A DNA stretch of 45,624 bases from a virus. The notes under the pieces were generated by a model, which made no database searches, had not been told where the DNA came from, and worked only from the letters and a program-made list of their open reading frames with translations. Numbering within the stretch: the stretch's first letter is position 1; each line of letters begins with the position of its first letter. The position numbers were made by a program, and so were the translations under genes. The stretch covers positions 1 through 45,624 of the IMG/VR virus record IMGVR_UViG_3300005471_000025; one strand, 5' to 3'. Below are positions 10,865 to 45,613 of this stretch, in pieces.

Positions 10865-11614
10865 TTAGGTGCTCGGGCGGAGCGAGAGGGCTTCCGGCAC
10901 GTTAATCGGGAGCGGGAGGCCGTCCTTATCCGACAACCAGCCCTCGCGGCGGGTAAATGTGACCAAGTCGCGGAGGAGGAGCGTGTCGTGGAGGCATCCG
11001 TTGACCAATTCGCCCCATTTTCCGGCTTGGTAGAGGCGCGGAGCGTCGCTCGCTTCGCCCGAACGGTCTCGTTGGAGGGTGGAGCGTCCCAAAGCACCGA
11101 GTCCCTGCCCCTTCCAGTCGACTCCGGCGCGTTCACACGCCTCCTGCACGGCCTGGAAGAGGTCAAAATGGCGTTTCAGAGGGATTCCGAAGTGCGTGTG
11201 GGCTTCGAGGAGGCGGAGGTCGAACGCGCGGCCGTTGAACGTGACCACGACATCCGCCTCGCGCAGGTCGCGCACGAGGTCATCGACCGTCTCCTGCGTA
11301 TAAAAGCGCGGGGCCTCGTCCTCTGACCTCCAGAGACAGGCGATAGACACCGCGCCCTCGCGAATCGCACCGAGCCAGCCGCCCAGTTCCTCAAGCGGCC
11401 GAGCCACGCGCAGGGTCAGATAGACAACGCGTTGGGTTTCGTGTGGAGGACGAGGGGCGCCCGAGGGGAGGTGAGTTCCACCAGAGAAGGACTCGGCTTC
11501 AGAGGTGGCTGTCACACCTCCGGGCTCGGGCTTGGGCGCCGGGGAGGGCGCTTGAGGCAGGATATGGGCGGCTAGTTCATCGACAAGTTCGCTATACGGG
11601 TCCGATGCGGCCAT
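10865..11614 (-). CDS. YprB-like RNase H-fold protein, probably inactive
   Basis: A 249-residue protein. The first 60 residues are Pro-rich. Residues 62-220 match the YprB/RNase H-like 3'-5' exonuclease group: VVYLTLRV, ELGGWLGAIREGAVSIACLW, then ADVVVTFNGRAFDLRLLEAH, RHFDLFQAV, and finally NGCLHDTLLLRDL. In active members the first strand reads like FDLET and supplies Asp and Glu. Here it is LTLRV, so both are lost (Thr67, Arg69), while Asp132 and Asp210 remain. It may bind nucleic acid without cutting it. Its place between TerL and portal suggests a packaging-related role. Confidence 0.7.
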   Translation of the reverse strand: MAASDPYSELVDELAAHILPQAPSPAPKPEPGGVTATSEAESFSGGTHLPSGAPRPPHETQRVVYLTLRVARPLEELGGWLGAIREGAVSIACLWRSEDEAPRFYTQETVDDLVRDLREADVVVTFNGRAFDLRLLEAHTHFGIPLKRHFDLFQAVQEACERAGVDWKGQGLGALGRSTLQRDRSGEASDAPRLYQAGKWGELVNGCLHDTLLLRDLVTFTRREGWLSDKDGLPLPINVPEALSLRPST

Positions 11615-18473: not shown

Positions 18474-18673
18474 CGATGCGACGGAAGAGAACGCGCCCCG
18501 TTCCCGCGAACCTGGACGTTATCGTCCGGGTCCGGGGCGGAATAGCCTACGTGGAACGGATTAACCGATTCGTCAAGGTTGAGGTATGGGACTACGATAA
18601 CGGAAGGGACATGCTAGAAAGCGACCCCATGAAGCACCGGGACGAGAACGGAGACGCCTACGCTCTTGGCTAG
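18470..18673 (+). CDS. 67-residue hypothetical protein
   Basis: ATG 18470 behind GGAGGAGA and overlapping the previous stop (ATGA). A basic start (MRRKRTRPVPANLDVIVRVR) leads to a small beta-like domain (GGIAYVERINRFVKVEVWDYD) and a polar acidic tail. No family recognised. Confidence 0.65.
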   Translation: MTMRRKRTRPVPANLDVIVRVRGGIAYVERINRFVKVEVWDYDNGRDMLESDPMKHRDENGDAYALG

Positions 18674-18740
18674 TGTCGTTCTGATAGGAATGGGATGTCT
18701 CCTCCTGGCCCTGGCACTCGTCACCCTCAAGTACAGGTAG
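18666..18740 (+). CDS. possible 24-residue membrane microprotein
   Basis: A TTG at 18666 inside the end of the previous gene opens a short frame to TAG 18738-18740. It reads as one hydrophobic helix (VVLIGMGCLLLALALVTL) ending in KYR. The ribosome site is poor. It is listed because similar tiny single-span frames recur in this operon. Confidence 0.3.
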   Translation: MASVVLIGMGCLLLALALVTLKYR

Positions 18741-18831
18741 CTCTACCCTACCCCCATGGGGGGGGTATAACCGTCTATCACGACCTGAAGATCCTACCGG
18801 CCCGGCTAACCATCGATCACGATTCCGACCC

Positions 18832-18855
18832 GTCCTGCGACCTGTCCTGCGACCT
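18832..18855. repeat. 12-bp tandem repeat
   Basis: GTCCTGCGACCT occurs twice head to tail (18832-18843, 18844-18855), followed by the start of a third copy (GTC). It may be an iteron or protein-binding site. Confidence 0.6.
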
Positions 18856-18888
18856 GTCATCCGGTTTTTACAAGAGGCCCCTATAAAC

Positions 18889-18984
18889 ATGAGTCAGAAG
18901 CAGGGAGCGCCACCGAGCGCTACCGCTGGCTCTGTTTATATAGGATTAAAAGGAATCGCTAAATCGTTGGGCTGCATTAGGTAA
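18889..18984 (+). pseudogene. truncated helix-turn-helix frame
   Basis: ATG 18889 opens a 31-codon frame. After a polar start it reads VYIGLKGIAKSLGC, the beginning of a MerR/excisionase-type HTH (usually followed by S-RT---), but a TAA comes three codons later. No other frame continues the domain convincingly. It is either a decayed regulator or a short leader peptide for the downstream helicase. Confidence 0.4.
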
Positions 18985-19069
18985 GAGCGGAAATCGTCAG
19001 AATCCCGTGAAGATGTTGCAGCATCTAAGTTTGTGGGCGTTTTTCTGAGGGTGTTTTCCGGCTCACGAG

Positions 19070-19086
19070 GCCCCCATGGAGGGGGC
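19070..19086 (+). promoter_or_regulatory. hairpin next to the helicase ribosome site
   Basis: GCCCCC (19070-19075) pairs with GGGGGC (19081-19086) around ATGGA. It ends 1 nt before the AGGAGG ribosome site of the helicase, so it could modulate translation or be recognised as double-stranded DNA; a similar motif is at 18751-18762. Confidence 0.45.
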
Positions 19087-19101
19087 TAGGAGGTGTCAAG
19101 G

Positions 19102-20232
19102 ATGGTTGACAGTGGGGGTCCGGGAGGGACGTTTGCGGTCGATGGGACGGTTGAGGACTGGGCCAATTGGGAGCATCACATGGGACCGGAAGACAGGGAG
19201 ACGTTCGAGGGACAGTTCGTACCGCTGAGTGGGAATGACCTCTTCCAGGCGCAGGCGACCCCTCCGGCTTGGCTCCTGACTGACTTGATACGCGAGCGGA
19301 GCCTCGTCATGGTGTCGGGAGAACCCTTCTCGGGGAAGACGCTCTTCCTCCTCTCGTTGGCGATCGCGTTGGATACAGGGCATCCGTTCCTCGACGTGTT
19401 TGCGCCTATCGATGGGCATAGGTGTCTGTTTATTGGACAGGATGCGCCCACGTGGGATTACATCGGGTGCTACTCAGCGCTAGCTCGTGGGGTCGTGCGC
19501 GGTGTGGTGCCGCACCTGCCATCGATCTTCATCTTGAACAAGGGGCTCTCGTTAAATCAGCCACAAGCGTTTCGCATAGCGGTTAGCGAGGCGGTGCGCC
19601 TCTACGGGATCGATGTCCTCATGCTCGATGTGCTCAAGTCGTTCCATGATTACGATGAGAACTCGAATGTTGAGATGGCGCGGGTGATGGATATGCTCAA
19701 GGCGTTGAGGGATTCGCTCGGCTTGACGGTGTTTATGTCGCATCACACGGCAAAACCGAACGCGCAAACGGCGGGCGAGAATTATTTTGGAAACTATCGA
19801 GCGAGAGGCGCATCTGTTATAGCGGGTTCGATCGATCAGCACTTTTTGCTGAGGACGGGGACGAAAGATAAGGTGGGTGCGACGATCAAGTTGCATATGC
19901 CGAAGGCGAGAGGGGCGATGAGTGGGTTGAAGTTGGATGATTTGCAGTTGTTGGAGGAGCAAAAGGCGGGGGTGAGGGCGTTGGTGCTGAGGTCGAACGT
20001 GCTTGTGACGGACGAGATGACACGGTTGGTGATGGGGGCGTTAGATAAGGAGGTGAGTCGGAGGCCAGCGGAGGTGCACCGGGCAATCAAGTCGGGGTTT
20101 GGGCATTTGGATGAGGGGCAGACGTACAACAGGATGTATCAGGCGATGAAGAGGCTGGAGAAGCAGGGGTTGGTGGAGCAGCCAGCGAGGGGGTTGTGGC
20201 GCAGGGTGCGAGAGACGGTGGAGGTAGCGTGA
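19102..20232 (+). CDS. RepA-like helicase (AAA_25, RecA fold)
   Basis: 376 residues from ATG 19102, which has AGGAGG 8 nt upstream; a GTG at 19093 lies on the ribosome site itself. Walker A SGEPFSGKT (72-80), strand LFIGQDAP, Walker B GIDVLMLDVLKSF (169-181) and a sensor-like VFMSHHTAKP (210-219). This is the AAA_25/RepA hexameric helicase group. The C-terminal 80 residues look like a winged helix (AEVHRAIKSGFGHL, YNRMYQAMKRLEKQGLVE). It is probably the replicative helicase, as no DnaB-type protein or primase was seen. Confidence 0.85.
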   Translation: MVDSGGPGGTFAVDGTVEDWANWEHHMGPEDRETFEGQFVPLSGNDLFQAQATPPAWLLTDLIRERSLVMVSGEPFSGKTLFLLSLAIALDTGHPFLDVFAPIDGHRCLFIGQDAPTWDYIGCYSALARGVVRGVVPHLPSIFILNKGLSLNQPQAFRIAVSEAVRLYGIDVLMLDVLKSFHDYDENSNVEMARVMDMLKALRDSLGLTVFMSHHTAKPNAQTAGENYFGNYRARGASVIAGSIDQHFLLRTGTKDKVGATIKLHMPKARGAMSGLKLDDLQLLEEQKAGVRALVLRSNVLVTDEMTRLVMGALDKEVSRRPAEVHRAIKSGFGHLDEGQTYNRMYQAMKRLEKQGLVEQPARGLWRRVRETVEVA

Positions 20233-20534
20233 AGACGGAAGAGTTGCACGAGAAGGCAAGAAGGTGCCTCAAGGAGCTAGGGCCTAGTTCGGATAAGGTG
20301 GCGATGACGTTGAAGCGGATGGGGGTCAAAGGAATACCAGGTGAGGCCAAACATTGCCCAATCGCTAACTATATGAAGAAGAAGACGTTTAGGCTATTGA
20401 GTCCTTTGGTTGCGGGTACGTTCTCGTTTAACGGACCGCTTGGGCGTGAATTTGTTTACCTCCCAAGGTCTGTGACGGCTTTCGTGAAACGATTCGACCA
20501 GGAGAAGTATCCGTTTCTCAAGAGGGGCAAATGA
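20229..20534 (+). CDS. conserved small phage protein
   Basis: 101 residues from GTG 20229, overlapping the helicase stop as GTGA, with GGAGG 5 nt upstream. The pattern AMTLKRMGVKGIPGEAKHCP, IANYMKKKTF and FVKRFDQEKYPFL is one I recall from short uncharacterised phage and plasmid proteins (CPIANY core). It may bind nucleic acid, but nothing specific can be said. Confidence 0.7.
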   Translation: MKTEELHEKARRCLKELGPSSDKVAMTLKRMGVKGIPGEAKHCPIANYMKKKTFRLLSPLVAGTFSFNGPLGREFVYLPRSVTAFVKRFDQEKYPFLKRGK

Positions 20535-20743
20535 GACTGGGCGTAACGACGGTGAGTGTGACGCGGGAGATCAAGCTGACGATGAGGGAGGATGAAGGTG
20601 GAGGGCTAGAGTGGTTCCTGACGATAGAGGAGGCGCTCGTGACAATGTCGGAAGAGACGTTCCAGGCGCTGATTAGGGAGAGAGAGAGACTGCTTAGGAC
20701 GGCGCGGGTGACCAGGTCAGATAAGGAGATAGTCGGTGGGTGA
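20531..20743 (+). CDS. 70-residue hypothetical protein
   Basis: ATG 20531 overlaps the previous stop (ATGA). Two strands (VTREIKLTMREDEGGGLEWF) precede a helix with FQALIRERERLLRT. Acidic-basic mixed composition; no family recognised. Confidence 0.6.
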   Translation: MRLGVTTVSVTREIKLTMREDEGGGLEWFLTIEEALVTMSEETFQALIRERERLLRTARVTRSDKEIVGG

Positions 20744-21407
20744 TCTGCAGAGGTTGAGTGGGTTGATGGAGCACGTTAATCGGGAACTGGCGAAGATGGA
20801 GTACCCGGACTTCGCCAAGGCTATGTTGGCAGAGGAGTTGTGGCCCTTGGTGAAGGAGAAACCGGAGAAGGAGGCGAGGGTAGAGTCAAGGGGCGATAAG
20901 ACGCTCCAAGAGACGCTTCAGGCGCTGCGGGAGGATAACTGGACGCTGGATCAGATCTCGCAGAAGGTTGGGGTGACGAACTCGACCGTGAGGATGGCGC
21001 TCCTCGGGAGGCGCCTCAATGCGACCTCGCGGAGGAAGTTCGCGAGGGCGTTTGAGTTGAAGATGGTGGAGCCGAAGGTGGCGCGGGGCATACCCCCGAG
21101 CAAGAGGCCGGATAAGAAGGCGGAGTACAACCGGAGGTACAGGGAGAGGCTCCAGTCGAGCGAGGCGCTCCAGACGTTTGCCACGACGTTGACGAAGCTG
21201 CGACAGGCTAGCGGCATGACGCAGAAGGAGTTGGAGAAGAAGAGCCAGGTTAATATAAGCCGGATCGAGAACCGCTGCACGGTGCCGACGCTTGCGGGCA
21301 TTGAGAAGATCGCCGATGCGTTAAGGGTGTCGACGAGCGTGTTCCCGGATCTGGCGGAGTTGAGGAGTGTGGACTATAGGAATCTGAGGCACCGGGCGAG
21401 CGTCTAA
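20736..21407 (+). CDS. two-HTH DNA-binding regulator
   Basis: 223 residues from GTG 20736 (GGAG site upstream, 8-nt overlap with the preceding gene). A first helix-turn-helix lies around residues 65-92 (NWTLDQISQKVGVTNSTVRM). A basic linker (PSKRPDKKAEYNRRYRER) leads to a C-terminal XRE/Cro-type HTH (LTKLRQASGMTQKELEKKSQ, then NISRIENRCTVPTLAGIEKI). It is probably a transcription regulator of the phage. No repressor-cleavage or integrase partner was found, so it does not by itself imply lysogeny. Confidence 0.8.
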   Translation: MGDLQRLSGLMEHVNRELAKMEYPDFAKAMLAEELWPLVKEKPEKEARVESRGDKTLQETLQALREDNWTLDQISQKVGVTNSTVRMALLGRRLNATSRRKFARAFELKMVEPKVARGIPPSKRPDKKAEYNRRYRERLQSSEALQTFATTLTKLRQASGMTQKELEKKSQVNISRIENRCTVPTLAGIEKIADALRVSTSVFPDLAELRSVDYRNLRHRASV

Positions 21408-28630: not shown

Positions 28631-28679
28631 ATCGCGCGCGGGCGTTGAGGCGTCTAAGTAGGTTCAGAGGAGGTGGCAC

Positions 28680-29003
28680 GTGATGATAAAGAGTCAACAT
28701 GAGAACGTATGGGAAGAGATCTATCTATCTGACCTCAAGTACCAGAATCAGATTGAGTCCCGATTCAAGAATAACCCAGGGCGACACGGGATGAGGAACG
28801 AGGTACCGATCCAGTCAGTGCGTGGTGGGTGCCCTCCGGTGGCTGTGCTGGTTGACTGCTGCCTCGCGTGCACGATTCCGAGTCTGCACCACTACCAGGA
28901 TGTAGATTGGGATGACAAGAACGAGAGGGAGATTGTCACCTGGAAGCTGCAATTCAATGAATATACCCAGGTCTACCATGCTAACTGGCGGTTGCTTGAC
29001 TAA
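28680..29003 (+). CDS. hypothetical protein with Cys pairs
   Basis: 107 residues from GTG 28680 or ATG 28683, with AGGAGG 7-10 nt upstream. A charged N-terminus (HENVWEEIYLSDLKYQNQIE) leads to a Cys cluster (RGGCPPVAVLVDCCLACTIP), possibly metal-binding, and an aromatic C-terminus. Codon use is less GC-rich than its neighbours. No family recognised. Confidence 0.6.
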   Translation: MMIKSQHENVWEEIYLSDLKYQNQIESRFKNNPGRHGMRNEVPIQSVRGGCPPVAVLVDCCLACTIPSLHHYQDVDWDDKNEREIVTWKLQFNEYTQVYHANWRLLD

Positions 29004-29833
29004 TGGCGATCGCAACCGGCACACCCGATCTATATGAACGCATCCTAATCTACGGGGCACCCAAGGTAGGGAAGACGCGCTTCGCCACGGCTCTGACGGG
29101 GAGGTTTGGCGAGGCCGTTTACTTTGCCGTCGATCCGGGCGCAGAGCGACTTGACTCGGTACTAACCGGGTATCGGAGCCGCCTCCACGTGGTCCAGTCG
29201 AGGCCGAAGGTAGGCGAGGTGTACGACCCGAGGAAGGACGCCTTCATCATCGCCCAGGAGGACTGGACGAAGCAGTTCCCCGGGGTGAAGACGTTGATCT
29301 GGGACACGTTGACCATCACGAGCCAGTCGATCCTCGCACACATTGCCGATACCGGAGCATTCAGCGCCACCCAGCATATCTCGATGGGGCAGAAGGGGTC
29401 GAAGGAGTACCAGACCGTGCCGATGCAGGGGGATTACGGGGCAGCGCAGAATGCCGTGGACCGATTGATAACGTTCCTATTCCAGCAGCCACTTCACGTG
29501 ATTGTCTTGGCGCACGAGGGTTACCGAGAGGCCATGGAGGGAGGGGCCAAGACTCTGATTGGAGGCCCGCTGACGGTAGGCTCCAAAACGATCGGGTCGT
29601 TAGCGGGGCGTTTTCCCACTGCAATCAGACTCACGAGGAAAGAAGAGTCGGCAGGGTTTGAGAAGAAGACGAAGGTCGTGGCGTGGACGGAGACGAAGGG
29701 CGTGTGGGTTGCCGGAGTGAGGTCGGGGCATCTGATGAACCCGATGCCGATGGTCGACGTGCCGCCCGATCCGATTGGGTTCTGGGAGCAGTACGATCGA
29801 ATGTTTCTAGCCGAGGAGGGGGCGAATGTCTGA
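29003..29833 (+). CDS. Sak4-like RecA-fold recombinase
   Basis: 276 residues from ATG 29003 (TAATG overlap). Walker A IYGAPKVGKTRFA (18-25), strand VYFAVDPGAERLDS, Walker B TLIWDTLT (97-103) and a sensor-like VIVLAHEGYRE. Length and plan fit the AAA_24 single-domain RecA-like group that includes phage Sak4 annealing proteins. It would assist single-strand annealing or recombination-dependent replication with the putative SSB encoded next and the Cas4-like nuclease upstream. Confidence 0.8.
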   Translation: MAIATGTPDLYERILIYGAPKVGKTRFATALTGRFGEAVYFAVDPGAERLDSVLTGYRSRLHVVQSRPKVGEVYDPRKDAFIIAQEDWTKQFPGVKTLIWDTLTITSQSILAHIADTGAFSATQHISMGQKGSKEYQTVPMQGDYGAAQNAVDRLITFLFQQPLHVIVLAHEGYREAMEGGAKTLIGGPLTVGSKTIGSLAGRFPTAIRLTRKEESAGFEKKTKVVAWTETKGVWVAGVRSGHLMNPMPMVDVPPDPIGFWEQYDRMFLAEEGANV

Positions 29834-30893: not shown

Positions 30894-31099
30894 CCCGCTG
30901 CCGTAACTGTGGTCGGACAGAGATCCCCTCTGGGCGGGAGAGCCTCCGTGAGGGCTTTCGGCTCCAGCCGGAGGGGCTCTGTCTTGACTGCTCCAGCGTA
31001 GCAACTCACTTCGCCGCGAGAGGTCTCGCCGCCTTCCGGGGCTCCTTGAAGGGAGTCTCATGCAAGGATGCGTTGAGACCCGGGCAGATGGACAACTAG
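30743..31099 (+). CDS. zinc-ribbon protein with unusual overlap
   Basis: The visible start is ATG 30743, deep inside the preceding gene; no nearer ATG, GTG or TTG exists. Only the second half looks protein-like: a four-Cys ribbon, TRCRNCGRTEIPSG, then EGLCLDCSSVATHF. Either the overlap is real or translation starts later at a rare codon near the previous stop (30893). It overlaps the polymerase start by 40 nt. Confidence 0.5.
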   Translation: MLTNYKGAIGLNLHGNGKRDFREAAGRPIGQREGEAQTAAQQDRPWRGLLTRCRNCGRTEIPSGRESLREGFRLQPEGLCLDCSSVATHFAARGLAAFRGSLKGVSCKDALRPGQMDN

Positions 31100-33114
31100 C
31101 TCCACTAACTAAGGTACAGGTGGCGTGTGGACGTGACGAGGCGCGTGAGGTCGGGCTTCCCAAGTGGGTCGGACACGCTGCTGAGGAGTGGGGTGTCGAG
31201 TTGGTCGGTGCAGATGCCGAATGCGCACTTCAACATGCACCACTCGGTCTCTTTGGAGGCGACCTACTTCGAGCTTGGACTGGCACGGCTCGTCGAATCG
31301 AGGACGTACGGGGATATCTCAACCAGCCAATTGGTCCAGGCGTATCCGTTCTTAGGCGATCATATAATGTTCGAGGCAGCTATCGTACTGAGCGCAAGGG
31401 TCGGGACGGCACGGTCCTTCACCGAGTCGGCGACCCCAAGCACGGGTGGGTGGATCACCGTGTCGACTCCCCGCTTTCACGATTGGATGTTGGCTTCATG
31501 GGACTTCATCGTCCTGAGACGATCTCTAGTGGTAGGTTTCACTGGCTTCCTGTATTCAAGGCGGATCTTGAACGACTTGCTCGATGGACGCGCGGGGAAG
31601 TCCATCCCCTCAAGATCGACATCGCGGGCTGGGGTGGTGCGGAACGACTTCTAGACGCGCGTGAGGTGACGCTCGACATCGAGACCTCGATGGACGGGAA
31701 GCGCATCCACCTCGTGGGGTTGGCGGGAGAGAGCGGTCCGGCGCACGTGCTCCCGTGGGGGAGCGAGGCGCGCGATCTCTTGCAGGAGTTGGTCAGGCGG
31801 GAGGTCCTGCTCATCGGGCACAACCTGACGTTTGACCTCACGTGCTTGAGCCAAGCCGGGGTGGAGTTCCCCGAGGGGCAAAAGGTCTACGACACCCTCC
31901 ACGCCACGAGCCTCCTCCTTCCCGATTACTACAAGGGCCTCGGCCGTGTGGCCTCCGTGTACCTCGACCTCTACCCCTGGAAACACCTCGCACGTGTGGA
32001 TCGTGTCCGATACAACGCCACCGATGTGCTCGTGACCCGGGCGCTGAAGGGGAGGCTGGAGGGGTTGATTGCAGAGGCGGGGATGACTGGGCTGATGCAG
32101 ACGGTCAATGCGCGCCTCCTCCCGTGGGCGAGGATGAGTCAGAGGGGGATGCGGGTCGACCTCGCACAGTTGGACGTGTGGAAGCGCGATACGGCGAGAC
32201 GGCTTGAGGAGGCACGGATAGAGTGGGAGAAGTATGCCGCCGTGCCGCTTGGGTCGGTGGCGAAGGTGGGGCGCTACTTCTACGGGAAGGCGAGGTCGGC
32301 GGGGTGGCTGGAGGATGAGGCGCTCGGGCGGCTCGCGCTCCGACGGCCGGAGAAGCTCGCGGCTGCGATGGCGTACTCGCGGTGGAGACGGGTGAAGCGG
32401 GAGGCGGACGTGAGGATCGAGCCGGATGCGGATGGGCTGATCCACCCCGTGTGGATGCCCTATGACCCGGAACGCGGGGGGAAAACGACGCTGGAGCCGG
32501 ATCTCGCGCTCCTTGGGCCGGTGGGGCGGAGGATGATCGTGCCACGGCAGAAGGATCACCGGATCTGGGTACTGGATTACGGGGACACGTTTACGGAACT
32601 GCTCTTCTCGAAGGAGAACACCATGGTTGGAGTGGATGCAGTGCGCTCCAAGGCGACGTTGGAGGGGTTCCTCAGGCGGTGGTCAGCCGGGAGTCTAGCG
32701 GCGCGCTTGACGATCAAGGGGTTCACGACCACGGTGAAGCAGGCGGAGGGGTTGTACGAGCGCTTCCGCGAGGCGTCCCCCAGGCTTACTGCGTGGGTGA
32801 AGGCGGTCGAACGCGAGGGTGTGGAGAAGGGCTTCCTCACGAATAGCTATGGGCGCGTGCGGTACTTCTACGGGAATCGGATGGAGGAGGGAGAGCCGGT
32901 TGGGGCAACGGTCCATGAGATGGTCGAGTGGATGGTGGAATCGAACATGGAGGACCGGATGAGAGTGAACAGTGAAGGTTGGACGATTGGGCGGTATGCC
33001 GTGGGGGAAGGGGAAGATAGCCCCGTCGACTACATGGGTTGGCATCCGCATGAGAACTGGCAGGCGGCGATCGATGCATCGGAGCCGCTACCCAAGCTGG
33101 GAGAGCCGCGATGA
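31060..33114 (+). CDS. UDG-like/exonuclease/family A polymerase fusion, divergent palm
   Basis: 684 residues from ATG 31060 (GAAGGGAG upstream). Residues 1-180 weakly resemble a uracil-DNA glycosylase-like domain (GRDEAREVGLPKWVGHA, LLRAWTGTARRIEDVRGYL, then GLHRP and WLPVFKADLERLARW). Residues 200-330 are a 3'-5' exonuclease with all acids: TLDIETS (D206, E208), GHNLTFDL (D259) and YNATD (Y318, D322). The polymerase part has GGKTTLEPDLALLG (the usual GRLSS-dPNLQN), motif A as LDYGDTFTE (usual DYSQIE), motif B R549...K553, and at motif C VNSE where HDE is expected, so that catalytic Asp is missing. It is the only polymerase seen. Confidence 0.8.
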   Translation: MQGCVETRADGQLAPLTKVQVACGRDEAREVGLPKWVGHAAEEWGVELVGADAECALQHAPLGLFGGDLLRAWTGTARRIEDVRGYLNQPIGPGVSVLRRSYNVRGSYRTERKGRDGTVLHRVGDPKHGWVDHRVDSPLSRLDVGFMGLHRPETISSGRFHWLPVFKADLERLARWTRGEVHPLKIDIAGWGGAERLLDAREVTLDIETSMDGKRIHLVGLAGESGPAHVLPWGSEARDLLQELVRREVLLIGHNLTFDLTCLSQAGVEFPEGQKVYDTLHATSLLLPDYYKGLGRVASVYLDLYPWKHLARVDRVRYNATDVLVTRALKGRLEGLIAEAGMTGLMQTVNARLLPWARMSQRGMRVDLAQLDVWKRDTARRLEEARIEWEKYAAVPLGSVAKVGRYFYGKARSAGWLEDEALGRLALRRPEKLAAAMAYSRWRRVKREADVRIEPDADGLIHPVWMPYDPERGGKTTLEPDLALLGPVGRRMIVPRQKDHRIWVLDYGDTFTELLFSKENTMVGVDAVRSKATLEGFLRRWSAGSLAARLTIKGFTTTVKQAEGLYERFREASPRLTAWVKAVEREGVEKGFLTNSYGRVRYFYGNRMEEGEPVGATVHEMVEWMVESNMEDRMRVNSEGWTIGRYAVGEGEDSPVDYMGWHPHENWQAAIDASEPLPKLGEPR

Positions 33115-33380
33115 TCCCCGACTATAGCTGGATGAAGCTGAAGTGGGGGTATGAGGTCAAGCGGTTCGAGAAGGACCCGCGCTACCGATGGCAAGTGTAC
33201 ATCCCGAAGCTCGTCCGGTGGAGGTCGCCTCAGTATAACTCGCAGGATATCATCATGCCGAAGTCGGCGGCTCAGGCGCTGATGGAGGAGCTACAACGCA
33301 TCCTAGCGGAGCCCGGGCTAGAGGGCGTGGTGTTGGAGAAGCGCGCACGAGAGACGGAACCAGATGAGCGAGTCGACTGA
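33111..33380 (+). CDS. 89-residue hypothetical protein
   Basis: ATG 33111 overlaps the polymerase stop (ATGA). Aromatic/basic first half (WMKLKWGYEVKRFEKDPRYR) and a helical end (ALMEELQRILAEPGLEG). No family recognised. Confidence 0.65.
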   Translation: MIPDYSWMKLKWGYEVKRFEKDPRYRWQVYIPKLVRWRSPQYNSQDIIMPKSAAQALMEELQRILAEPGLEGVVLEKRARETEPDERVD

Positions 33381-34651: not shown

Positions 34652-35100
34652 GCGAAGAGGCGTTGATGTCCCTGGAGGAGGTGGCGCGGCACCTGGGACG
34701 CATGACTACTGGCGTAGTGAACGGCAACATGGCGTATCTCGATGTTGGATTGGCGCAGCGGATGGCCCGCGCCCTCCGCGCCCACATCGAGGGCGGGTGC
34801 GTGCCAGTTTCCGAGTTACAGGATTTGCTTGATCGAAGAGACGCCTTCGCTACGCGTGATTTAGACACCATGTTCGTAGATTCATTTCTACAGGGAGTCC
34901 GCCGCGTACACAGGCAAATCAAAACCCTCCTCGACAAGCACGCCCCAGCGAAGCCCGCGCCGGACCCGATTGTAGAGGCGCGACAGGCGATGCTGGATGC
35001 GCGGCGCAAGTTTAACCATCCATTACTCGGGGGCGCATTTCAAACGCTGGACCGTGCCGTCTCGCTCCTCGACCAAGCCATCGCGGAGCGCGGGAAGTGA
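34648..35100 (+). CDS. 150-residue hypothetical protein
   Basis: ATG 34648 overlaps the previous stop (ATGA). Mostly helical, with MSLEEVARHLGRMTTGVVNG, a Cys-Val turn and AVSLLDQAIAERGK at the end. No domain recognised. Its codon choice is closer to GC-rich host-like usage than the AGG-rich genes upstream. Confidence 0.65.
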   Translation: MSEEALMSLEEVARHLGRMTTGVVNGNMAYLDVGLAQRMARALRAHIEGGCVPVSELQDLLDRRDAFATRDLDTMFVDSFLQGVRRVHRQIKTLLDKHAPAKPAPDPIVEARQAMLDARRKFNHPLLGGAFQTLDRAVSLLDQAIAERGK

Positions 35101-35110
35101 GGGCCGAGAG

Positions 35111-35332
35111 GTGAGGGTTTACGAGGATAAGAGGACTGGCGGACTGGTTCATGCGATTGCGATTTGCCGGACCTGCGGCTGGAACTGTGAGAATTACCTG
35201 ACGGCGTGGTCGCTTGGCAAAGCCCACGCTTCCCGTAAAGGTCACGAGGTATCGGTGGATGTTGGGCACAACTACGTCTACGACGGGACGCAACAGGCGC
35301 TCAAAAGGAAGAAGAAGGCAAACACCCCATGA
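35111..35332 (+). CDS. small C2H2-like zinc protein
   Basis: 73 residues from GTG 35111. The core ICRTCGWNCENYLTAWSLGK followed by AHASRKGHEV gives Cys-x2-Cys and two His, a typical single zinc finger of phage accessory proteins. C-terminus strongly basic (KRKKKAN). Nucleic-acid binding is plausible. Confidence 0.6.
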   Translation: MRVYEDKRTGGLVHAIAICRTCGWNCENYLTAWSLGKAHASRKGHEVSVDVGHNYVYDGTQQALKRKKKANTP

Positions 35333-35580
35333 CCCAGCCCGAGAAAGCCAAGGGGGAGCTACCGCCACTACCCGATTACGCTCGCGGCGATTGGTCTGAG
35401 GTATCGCCCGTGATCGGCTTCACGTCTGGAGGTGCGTTCGGGGTTGCAGGCACGCTCGGCCCTAATGAGGTTCCGTACACGCGAGAGACGTTTATTCGAG
35501 GTGCCGCCCATATGCTCTACGGCAAACGTGCGGAAGAAGTAATCGAGCATTGGAAGCGATTGAAAGAGGCAAAGCCATGA
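35329..35580 (+). CDS. 83-residue hypothetical protein
   Basis: ATG 35329 overlaps the previous stop (ATGA). Pro-rich start, a Gly-rich middle (VIGFTSGGAFGVAGTLGPNE) and a helical end (RAEEVIEHWKRLKEAK). No family recognised. Confidence 0.6.
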   Translation: MTQPEKAKGELPPLPDYARGDWSEVSPVIGFTSGGAFGVAGTLGPNEVPYTRETFIRGAAHMLYGKRAEEVIEHWKRLKEAKP

Positions 35581-35924
35581 CCCCCGACCCCAAGGACGAC
35601 CCGCTGGGGGTGCTGGTGTGCGTCGAGTCCATGTTGCGGGATCAGTCCCAAGCCGAAGCGTCGGCGGATTGGAATGGCTCGGCGGCTTGGCACAATGGAC
35701 TGGCCGATCAGGTCCACGCAGCGCGGGAGGGGCTGGAGGAGCGCGACAAGTGGCAGGAGCGTGGGCTCCCATATCTAAGGCAACTGGTTCGCGCCCTGAT
35801 GATCGCTGGCGATGGAAAGAGAGTGCTGACCCAGGGAGAGATAGCGGACCTGTACAACGTGGGGCGACTTGCGCTGGACACGCTCCCACACGCAGCGGCC
35901 CGAGACATGGAGGAGCGCCCGTGA
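35577..35924 (+). CDS. 115-residue hypothetical protein
   Basis: ATG 35577 overlaps the previous stop (ATGA). The sequence is acidic and helical with DWNGSAAWHNGLADQVHAAR and RQLVRALMIAGDGKRVLTQG. Unknown function; part of a string of short accessory genes. Confidence 0.6.
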   Translation: MTPDPKDDPLGVLVCVESMLRDQSQAEASADWNGSAAWHNGLADQVHAAREGLEERDKWQERGLPYLRQLVRALMIAGDGKRVLTQGEIADLYNVGRLALDTLPHAAARDMEERP

Positions 35925-36256
35925 AGCGCATGACGATTGGCGAGCAAGTCGATAAACACGGCATGTCTGAGGCGTTCTTGGCAGTCGCGGACGCTTTCCT
36001 GCGGCGAGATGTGGCCCCGATCAAGGACAAGATCGTGACTGAAACATTCGGCAAGTGGATCGTCTGCGTAAACGGAACGCGGGAGACGGTGAAGGCCGAG
36101 CCTGAAGGGACGATGGGTTGCAACGAGGTTCCGCCAGTCCATGCGGCCCTATTTTACAACGGCTGGCTTGCGGGCCTCATCTCCCCTGCTGGCGGATGGA
36201 TTGCTGCTGGCGAGGGTGCGAACGAAGCGACCTTCATCGAAGCGATACGGTCGTGA
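35921..36256 (+). CDS. 111-residue hypothetical protein
   Basis: GTG 35921 overlaps the previous stop (GTGA). Alpha/beta protein with EQVDKHGMSEAFLAVADAFL, ETFGKWIVCVNGTRETVKAE and a Gly-rich loop near ALFYNGWLAGLISPAGGWIA. No family recognised. Confidence 0.6.
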   Translation: MKRMTIGEQVDKHGMSEAFLAVADAFLRRDVAPIKDKIVTETFGKWIVCVNGTRETVKAEPEGTMGCNEVPPVHAALFYNGWLAGLISPAGGWIAAGEGANEATFIEAIRS

Positions 36257-36822
36257 CCGACCAACGCGACGAGGTGGTGCTGTTGCCGTGTCCGTTTTGC
36301 GGGGTTACGCCAGTTCATACCAATTACCAGGTTATTTGCTGCACTACTTTGAGATGCCCGATACGAGCCCTAAATGTTTTCAGCTTAGAGCAATGGAACA
36401 CCCGCGCACCACAAGGCGCTGTTAGCGATGGAGGGGCGCCCCAAGAAGGGTCTGCTGCTATCGAAGTGCCGAAGGCCAAGGCCGATAGCGCGGAGGTCGG
36501 TAAAAGTCCGATCCCGCCCAGGACACCCTCGCCCCCGCAGGTTTCGAGTAAAGGAGGAACGAATGCTGTGGATGCTGGCAAGAGATTGGTGGAGGTACCG
36601 ATGGGCAAGCCCAATGTGGCGGCGAATCAACACAATGAAAACGTGGCGCCCGCTCCCGATGTGAGCCTGGCGGGGCCGCGTGTGTTTACTAGTGAGGAGC
36701 GGAAGGCGCTGGACCTAGCAGCGACACGTTGCGAAGTATGGGCTGGCGCTTACGAGGATGGTGGAAGCGTGGATGAACGCAATGCAGCCGCCACCATCCG
36801 CAAACTCCTGGAGAAACCATGA
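36253..36822 (+). CDS. Lar-like zinc protein with long linker
   Basis: 189 residues from GTG 36253. The first 50 residues match the Lar/restriction-alleviation zinc domain: VVLLPCPFCGVTPV, then VICCTTLRCPI and LEQWNTRAP. A Pro/Ala/Lys-rich linker (about 60-135) joins it to a helical C-terminal part (TSEERKALDLAATRCEVWAG). Lar proteins modulate type I restriction in enteric systems, but this zinc motif also occurs in many phage proteins of unknown role. Confidence 0.65.
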   Translation: MTDQRDEVVLLPCPFCGVTPVHTNYQVICCTTLRCPIRALNVFSLEQWNTRAPQGAVSDGGAPQEGSAAIEVPKAKADSAEVGKSPIPPRTPSPPQVSSKGGTNAVDAGKRLVEVPMGKPNVAANQHNENVAPAPDVSLAGPRVFTSEERKALDLAATRCEVWAGAYEDGGSVDERNAAATIRKLLEKP

Positions 36823-37019
36823 TCCTGTCTTGGCTCAAATGCGCTAGATGCCAAAAGCTCTACGAGGTGCTCGACGAGGATGATTGGGCCTACTGGTGCC
36901 GCGAATGCGTGCAGGCCGCAACGGAACTGCTGGGCCATAAGCCGTTCGTGATGTTTAAGCCCGCAGATGTCCCAGAGGGCTTCTATAAGAGTGAGCAGAG
37001 CAAACCACCCCATGACTGA
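36819..37019 (+). CDS. 66-residue zinc-ribbon protein
   Basis: ATG 36819 overlaps the previous stop (ATGA). Ligands in KCARCQKLYEV and YWCRECVQAA form a four-Cys zinc ribbon; the rest is short and polar. Accessory gene of unknown role. Confidence 0.6.
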   Translation: MILSWLKCARCQKLYEVLDEDDWAYWCRECVQAATELLGHKPFVMFKPADVPEGFYKSEQSKPPHD

Positions 37020-43085: not shown

Positions 43086-45613
43086 TAAATGATCCTGTAG
43101 GTAAAGGTGAAGTACATGGCTTGGTTCGTAATGTCGGACGCCTTCCACTCCATCTGGGCGCGATCGTTCGTCGCATCCGCGAAGATCCCGGCCGCCTGGC
43201 CCGCGATCGCCTTGGAGGCTGCGGTCCCACCACAGTCCCGTTCCGCCCCAAAGTTGCTCGCCACAGGGAGCGAGATGCCCAACTGGGTTGTCGTGAGCGT
43301 GGTCGTCGGATCCACATCCACTTTGCCCGAGACTGTGACGACCGCTCCCACCCTCATCCACTGGCATTGGTAGGCTGTGCTCGCATCCAGATTGGCCACA
43401 TTCGTGAGTGTGGGGGTGTAGACTCCGCTCGCCGTTCTTTCCAACTCGGTAATCGCGGCGCCCGCAGCGACGGCAAGGCTGGTTGAGGCAACAATCTTCG
43501 TGGCGGTGAGCGTGTCAGTCGCAAAGGTCAGATCCGCATCATCGACAAGGCGACCATTTGTCGTGGCAAAGGGGACTCGACCCGATGTAAGTCGAGTGCC
43601 GTCATCCAGGACAAACGCCTTCCGCGCCGTGCCCGTCGTGATCGTGAAGAAGAGGTCGTCGGTCGTGAACTCAACCGCCCCAGCCTCGGCCGCCGTCATG
43701 TTCGTTCCCGACTGGAACTTGAGGGGCGCGGTTCCCGCAGCCGTCGTCCCAATGGCAAGCATGGCCCGAGCCGTGATTGCAGAGACGGTCGCCGGATTCC
43801 AGCCCAGCGCAATTGGATGGGCGATCCGAGACTTCATGTTGGTCGAGGTGTTGGTGAGATCGAGGCACCACTTGTTCGCGATGGCGGCGGTCAAGCCGGT
43901 CGAGCACCGGAACCCAGACCACGTGACTACGTCCGTGTCGTTCATGAACGTGGGGCCGATGTCGAAGGCAGTCGCCTGAGTCACGGCTGCAGAGATCGTG
44001 AACCCACCGATATTCGAGGCTTGGAAGGCGAGGGCGGTCGTCGTGACGGTGGCGAGCGTGTTGATGCCCACTCGGATACCCACGAGGTTCGTGCACGTGC
44101 CGCCACCGAGAGAGAGCCCCGCCGTGATGTCCGCCCCAGCCACGAGCGTGAAGGTGCCAGAGCCCGCAGGCTGGGCCGAGAAGACTAGCCCCGTGATGCT
44201 GGAGGACGCCCCCGCCGAGACCGTGGGATTCACAAGCATCTGGAATCCCATGATCGAGTAGGAGCCGGAGGTGATGTTGACCCCGCCTTGCACGTCGAGG
44301 CGATAGGCGCTCATTGTCCCAGCTAGGCCAGCCCCGGTCCCGGTGATGTTCATCAAGTTGCGGAACATATTGGTCGTGCCGATGACGCTGACATCGAGGT
44401 CGGACTTGAGCGTGACGCGCTGCCCGGAGACGTAGGCATCGGCTTCGGAGACGCTTGAGCCGAGATACAAGCGCCCGTTCACGGCGAAGTCGGTCAGGGC
44501 GCCGCTCGTGGGGACGGTGGGGCCGAGCGTCTGGCCTGCCGCGCGCCCTGGGAGATAGAGGTAGTCGGTCAAGCTGCCCGGGCCGATCGTGATTGAGGTC
44601 GCCGTGTCGCTCCACGTCATGCCGAAGAACTCGATCGTGTTGGCGCCCGGGGCTCCCGGCCACGTTTGAGAGATGGTGATCTGGGTCGGGCTATCGACCG
44701 AGGTGACGTGGGTGTCTTCGAGGAGCGAGTAGTTGTTCACGGTTTGGCGAAGCCGCATCCCCTTCGCGATGCCAGTGGTCGAGGCCATCGTGACGATTGC
44801 TGAGAGGAACGCGAACGTGCAGGACTTCGATACAAACGGCTGCCAGATGGGGAAGGAGCCCGAGGCGGGCGCTGCCAATGTCCCCTGCGCGGTCGTAAAC
44901 ATCGGGTAGAGTTCAGCACCCGTGCTGGAGCCGTAGAGGAGCCCACCCGGCTCGTAGGGGCGCCCGTTCCCCGAGGAGAACGTGTGGTCGCGCTTGACGA
45001 TCGCCCAGCAGTGGGTGCGATCCAACGCCCCAGCCCCGTTGTCCTTGTAGTCAAGCCCCGGGAACTGCACGGAGGGGATCACCCCGGTCGGGGTGGTGCG
45101 GGTACCCTCGCTGGCATACCCCCCAACAGGCCAACCCCCTCCCCAAGCGTGGGAGAGGATGCGGTTTCGAGTGGCGTTCATCCAGCCGCTCGGGCGTGTG
45201 GTGTCCTCAAGCGAGTAGAAGCAGTCGTTGTTGAAGGTCTTCTTCGCGATGGTTTGGAAGTCGCCTGAGTCCACGAAGTAGTGGAGCCCAGTAGAAGGGC
45301 CACTGTTGATCTCCGTGAAGCTCGGGAAGACCCAGTGGCGCTTCTGCGGGGCTGCAGTGGCGTTGACGTTACTCCCCTGTGCACCGATGAACACGCGTGC
45401 GGGCTGGGCTGAGAGGTCGCTTGTCAACGCGCGCCAGGAGAAGGTGTTCTCGGTGCCGGGCACGACGCCAGATGTGTAGGCTTGGCCGAACGCATCGAAG
45501 CTCACCGGACCGATTGACTTCTGCTCGAAGCTGCGCCCCGGGAGATAGAGGAACACACTTGTGTTGATGTCGGTCGATGGGTTCGTGACGGCCGAGGGAG
45601 TCCCCTGGGGCAT
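43085..45613 (-). CDS. tail fibre / receptor-binding protein
   Basis: 842 residues visible from ATG 45613, probably missing about 40 N-terminal residues found at the other window end. Dominated by Thr/Ser/Gly beta repeats (LAFQASNIGGFTISAAVTQA, ATAFDIGPTFMNDTDVV), as in trimeric fibres. The last about 110 residues (from GVYTPTLTNVANLDASTAYQ through TQLGISLPVASNFGAERD to FTFTYRII) form a compact C-terminal head module that I recall at the end of many phage fibres. It likely binds the host surface. Confidence 0.72.
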   Translation of the reverse strand: MPQGTPSAVTNPSTDINTSVFLYLPGRSFEQKSIGPVSFDAFGQAYTSGVVPGTENTFSWRALTSDLSAQPARVFIGAQGSNVNATAAPQKRHWVFPSFTEINSGPSTGLHYFVDSGDFQTIAKKTFNNDCFYSLEDTTRPSGWMNATRNRILSHAWGGGWPVGGYASEGTRTTPTGVIPSVQFPGLDYKDNGAGALDRTHCWAIVKRDHTFSSGNGRPYEPGGLLYGSSTGAELYPMFTTAQGTLAAPASGSFPIWQPFVSKSCTFAFLSAIVTMASTTGIAKGMRLRQTVNNYSLLEDTHVTSVDSPTQITISQTWPGAPGANTIEFFGMTWSDTATSITIGPGSLTDYLYLPGRAAGQTLGPTVPTSGALTDFAVNGRLYLGSSVSEADAYVSGQRVTLKSDLDVSVIGTTNMFRNLMNITGTGAGLAGTMSAYRLDVQGGVNITSGSYSIMGFQMLVNPTVSAGASSSITGLVFSAQPAGSGTFTLVAGADITAGLSLGGGTCTNLVGIRVGINTLATVTTTALAFQASNIGGFTISAAVTQATAFDIGPTFMNDTDVVTWSGFRCSTGLTAAIANKWCLDLTNTSTNMKSRIAHPIALGWNPATVSAITARAMLAIGTTAAGTAPLKFQSGTNMTAAEAGAVEFTTDDLFFTITTGTARKAFVLDDGTRLTSGRVPFATTNGRLVDDADLTFATDTLTATKIVASTSLAVAAGAAITELERTASGVYTPTLTNVANLDASTAYQCQWMRVGAVVTVSGKVDVDPTTTLTTTQLGISLPVASNFGAERDCGGTAASKAIAGQAAGIFADATNDRAQMEWKASDITNQAMYFTFTYRII

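Follow-up and report, generated by a model that had tools for sequence, protein, structure and literature searches.

The open reading frame at 31060-33114 (+ strand, 684 aa) of the window, which is the whole 45,624-nucleotide stretch of phage DNA analysed here, is assigned from its sequence to the phage UDG-exonuclease-PolA family as a polymerase-dead derivative, neither a working DNA polymerase nor a UDG. It comprises a UDG-derived region, a DEDDy exonuclease, a thumb remnant, and a palm/fingers remnant. The best explanation, which is given a probability of about 0.7, is that the polymerase half has been inactivated in the lineage of the window and its sister genome G003, and that the protein has most likely been kept as a 3'-5' exonuclease in a phage whose DNA would be copied by the host replicase. 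The alignments and searches demonstrate the ancestry of the protein, the loss of its polymerase site, and the conservation of its exonuclease site, and no other polymerase is detected in the complete genome.

The window corresponds to a single IMG/VR viral record and has capsid, portal, and terminase genes. Because its ends fall in neighbouring codons of a single virion gene (SSQQSR on the left and LVQMPQG on the right, as in relatives), it represents a complete, circularly closed genome. The gene at 31060-33114 is real, as judged from a match to PHROG_17 'DNA polymerase' (E 6e-33), a conserved gene order, and the presence in related phages of homologues that are 33-38% identical; the PHROG_17 match and a structural match to bacterial Pol I indicate family A descent. 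The Pfam matches are slighter: DNA_pol_A_exo1 (PF01612) gives a weak 20.2 bits over the exonuclease domain, and DNA_pol_A covers 63 residues at 12.8 bits, below the cut-off of 34.3. A second DnaQ/RNase H-like exonuclease adjoins TerL in the window (10865-11614, - strand) and is common to G003, G004, G005, G006, and G009; it was not found in G001 or G008.

Relatives with the same gene order were recovered using TerL, capsid, exonuclease-alignment, and Sak4 queries. The whole window protein, used as a single-sequence query against viral and genome collections, finds none; tblastn of the protein in named phages yields one weak match, and neither a DNA-level search nor a PDB sequence search gives any. 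Intact polymerases, with PF00476 matches above the cut-off, are encoded by G001, G004, G005 (truncated where its contig stops), G006, and G009; the more distant L117, L119, and L123 also retain the palm, and PHROG_17 matches extend over G016-G021. The known phage UDG-exonuclease-PolA polymerases (PHROG_17; G001, G004, G006, G009, L117, and L045) have the same domain order and exonuclease residues as the window protein, and in close relatives the same place in the genome, but they keep motifs A, B, and C, which the window has lost. A 13-gene tree pairs G003 and the window as sisters with support of 99/99; the alternative groupings of the window with G004 (p 0.004) and of G003 with G004 (p 0.028) are rejected. 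G003 has an exonuclease match and lacks a PF00476 match. (A pair of genes, amidoligase and glutamine amidotransferase-like, is present in G008 at 34675-36926, G003 at 18562-20830, and G001 at 43909-45591; the window and G004 have a MoxR-type AAA ATPase gene and a DUF7192 gene instead.)

Two of the more distant polymerases, L117 (8732-11176) and L119 (9243-12272), are otherwise intact and have Arg in place of the O-helix Tyr (YGTGRGAGP type). The L119 gene also contains an insert of ~240 aa within the PolA O-helix, after IFYG and before GRGAGP, as do L120 and L121. This insert begins with Cys and ends with GN-Thr, giving it an intein-like look, and G021 of L124 shows a split match of similar length.

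The first-pass annotation described a polymerase with an eroded palm and an intact exonuclease. Both the loss of the palm site and the intact exonuclease hold, but motif C has been deleted in frame rather than substituted. Motif A is degenerate, as had been proposed: it reads DYGDTFTE (residues 506-513; 32575-32598, +) in the alignment, where only the first Asp, D506, is retained, the SQIE-type segment is gone, and the Glu position is occupied by F. In the degenerate O-helix (526-541; 32635-32682, +), the Arg, Lys, and Tyr positions are A527, K531, and an Arg, and the YG of the FG--YG segment, correctly noted as missing, reads R539-R540; thus only the Lys is kept. The NSE at 637-639, which had been taken for motif C, is a misalignment that lies upstream of the deletion. 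After about residue 647 (32998-33003, +) the window lacks the stretch that bears HD in the relatives, and past this gap its tail PVDYMGWHPHENWQ lines up with the C-terminus of the family, PVDMKIG.NWGQM. Altogether, the window keeps 2/7 polymerase catalytic positions (the motif A Asp and the O-helix Lys) and G003 keeps 0/7; seven homologues have 7/7, and L117 and L119, with the O-helix Arg, have 6/7.

A search of the relatives for the same changes shows that nine aligned homologues keep the palm, and that G003 has lost it by different deletions. Compared with the intact forms, deletions in the window follow residues 414, 472, 514, and 647; G003 has deletions after residues 400, 419, and 490 and elsewhere, and both its motif A and its O-helix are missing. 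The contrast between the two halves of the protein is seen at positions that are unchanged across six intact homologues. In the exonuclease domain, 26/29 of these invariant positions are retained by both the window and G003; in the palm/fingers remnant (32425-33111, +) the window retains 27/84 and G003 25/84, and in the thumb region (32083-32424, +; pLDDT mostly 78-95) the values are 6/16 and 7/16, respectively. Fisher comparisons of exonuclease and palm retention give p 5e-8 for the window and 1e-8 for G003, values that are only descriptive, since residues within a protein do not vary independently. On a fixed topology, the palm branch lengths are 2.24 for the window, 1.53 for G003, and 0.47 for G004.

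Such lesions could in principle be sequencing or assembly errors in an intact gene, since the window is a single metagenomic contig. This explanation merits almost no weight: several in-frame deletions are combined with many substitutions, gene order is conserved on both flanks, the remnant has a coding-like composition, and the independent sister contig bears lesions of its own. In addition, the palm pieces are absent from other frames. An HMM of the intact palm (269 positions) matches the window at 3-60 and 89-194 and G003 at 2-56 and 158-234, always in the gene's own frame, and it finds only chance-level matches in the others. A frameshift that hides an intact palm is ruled out by this result.

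AlphaFold models, built from 14-sequence alignments, have a mean pLDDT of 72 (window) and 80 (G003), and in both the exonuclease is well modelled. The window model includes the thumb and some of the fingers/palm helices, and its pLDDT falls below 50 at residues 495-508, which lead up to and into motif A, and at residues 639-684, the C-terminus. In the G003 model the thumb and fingers are largely deleted; two palm strands are left, with SRAGF in place of HDSF. Among the matches listed, the best structural match of each model is a bacterial Pol I (window: Z 17.1, rmsd 4.0, 457 aligned; G003: Z 30.9). These models bear on the proposal that the protein is a working but unusual polymerase in which other acids have replaced the palm site. 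Although D506 and K531 are retained and part of the fingers/palm matches the profile of intact forms with 49 bits, such a polymerase is very improbable given that the motif C stretch is deleted, the O-helix is broken, model confidence is low in the motif A and C-terminal regions, and G003 lacks motif A and the O-helix entirely.

The exonuclease domain occupies residues 191-341 (31630-32082, +; PHROG_17, PF01612). As had been noted from the sequence, all five of its active-site residues are present: D206 and E208 in motif I (31675-31683, +), D259 in motif II (31834-31836, +), and Y318 and D322 in motif III (32011-32025, +). These residues, located by alignment and a catalytic table, are the D, E, D, D and motif III Tyr of a DEDDy enzyme; they are invariant in 14/14 aligned homologues, and each of the 11 homologues in the catalytic table has 5/5. 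Selection on the exonuclease is read from this conservation of residues. Because two diverged lineages keep this site unbroken, it can be argued that the exonuclease is still used.

The weak resemblance of the N-terminus to a uracil-DNA glycosylase reflects true homology. In an hhalign comparison against UDG domains from other phage polymerases, about residues 20-190 (31117-31629, +) match at a profile-profile E of 6e-6 and a probability of 85, and the orthologue in L117 matches Pfam UDG (PF03167) with an E of 3e-16. No Pfam UDG match is found in the window protein, nor in G006 or G001; the degeneration of this domain is therefore a trait of the close group rather than of the window alone. The UDG-like invariant positions retained number 10/12 in the window and 9/12 in G003. 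The suggestion of a UDG-type activity does not hold up, since the GEAPG-type motif, the conserved cysteines, and the HPA-type motif, which are present in UDG domains elsewhere among phage polymerases, as in L045, are missing at the matching places in the window, and UDG catalysis by this protein is unlikely. The UDG-like region (31060-31630) has a low third-position GC of about 50%. A +2-frame ORF at 31127-31654 overlies it with a composition that could be coding; BLAST finds no homologue of this ORF in the relatives.

The remnant downstream of the exonuclease resembles a translated gene. The base composition of the palm remnant by codon position is 63/45/79, compared to 59/45/89 for TerL, and no stops are observed where simple neutrality would predict ~6.6 in the window's 343-residue remnant and 2.7 in that of G003. 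An ATGA overlap with the next ORF (33111-33380) at 33111-33114 (+), a possible site of translational coupling, may explain part of this absence. Such coupling could hold the frame open even if the whole gene were decaying, with the palm lost first, the exonuclease next, and the protein already useless. The end state of this process would be G008, which has 127-bp terminal repeats and lacks the polymerase-derived gene. Also in keeping with decay, the exonuclease and UDG-like branches of the window exceed those of intact relatives (exonuclease on a fixed topology: window 1.06, G003 0.59, G004 0.43); this long exonuclease branch, like the survival of D506 and K531, counts against an exonuclease-only reading. 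General decay is nonetheless considered unlikely, as it does not readily account for the five exonuclease residues kept in two diverged lineages, for the equal retention of exonuclease invariant positions in both, or for the open frame of the long remnant. What the absence of the gene from G008 does indicate is that it is dispensable in this phage group.

The first-pass annotation saw no other polymerase, and this is confirmed for the complete window genome: no second polymerase is found with PF00476, PF00136, or PF07733, or in Pfam/PHROG scans of many larger window ORFs, and neither PolB nor PolIII alpha is detected in the window, G003, or G008. The window retains an AAA_25 helicase-like protein (19093-20232, +), a PD-(D/E)XK nuclease, and a Sak4-like protein (29003-29833, +), the last being the conserved neighbour of the polymerase-derived gene. 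A primase-like gene (phrog_2478; PriCT_1 in G008) adjoins Sak4 in G001, G003, G004, G005, G006, G008, and G009. In the window, gene order places it in the interval 28631-29002 (+), where a six-frame search finds no trace, ruling out its loss by frameshift; a small unrelated ORF (28680-29003) occupies its place. No clamp-binding peptides are matched among window ORFs >100 aa. The simplest inference is that the host replicase copies the phage DNA, and the other proposal made at first pass, a host polymerase working with a phage exonuclease factor, fits the lost polymerase site, the kept exonuclease residues, and the lack of another detected polymerase.

Taken together, these observations suggest the following course. 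The ancestor would have been a UDG-like/exonuclease/family A polymerase of the kind still intact in related phages. In the lineage of the window and G003, in-frame deletions and the loss of catalytic residues would have inactivated the polymerase half, and the exonuclease half would have been kept, most likely as a working, metal-dependent DEDDy 3'-5' exonuclease. Because the parts needed for synthesis are lost and the exonuclease site is intact in both sisters, it is suggested that the host enzyme copies the DNA and that the old polymerase is kept as a nuclease. This protein might trim 3' ends as the DNA is replicated, or in recombination together with its neighbour Sak4; any role left to the UDG-derived part and the thumb/palm remnant would be structural or DNA-binding at most.

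Inactivated polymerases are known in family B. Examples are an archaeal PolB group (PMC2527604), the C-terminal module of Pol epsilon (PMC2669801), and poxvirus F12 (PMC4304020), all of which likewise persisted in the genome after losing catalytic palm residues. The present case differs from these in that it concerns family A, the exonuclease site is kept, and no other polymerase is detected in the phages. A note of caution comes from a family B group that was first predicted to be inactive and is reported to have later proved active (PMC8764526). Closer to the window are phage divPolA1 and divPolA2, divergent family A proteins that have also lost one activity; they keep the palm, with the exonuclease inactivated or missing, and occur beside a regular polymerase, so that the window, with its palm lost and its exonuclease kept, is their mirror image (PMC11348598). 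Searches of part of the literature turned up no phage family A protein described as having lost its palm while retaining the exonuclease. As in the polymerase swapping described for Caudoviricetes, close phages here differ in their replicase and the neighbouring genes stay; unlike in swapping, no replacement is found, and either the activity was lost where the gene stands or, as in G008, there is no gene (PMC11348598).

The phages of this group share gene order and virion proteins that are mostly 50-80% identical, yet their polymerase is intact, inactivated, or absent. A broader reading, offered tentatively and at somewhat less than even odds, is that with these states coexisting the group is giving up its own replicase, and that its family A polymerase has been turned into a dedicated exonuclease acting alongside a host polymerase or in Sak4 recombination. 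A PolA-like match alone is not proof of a phage-encoded replicase. The coexistence of the three replicase states in one group offers a natural way to test what a phage retains once its own polymerase is retired, and in the window and G003 it is the proofreading-type nuclease site that has outlived the synthetic site.
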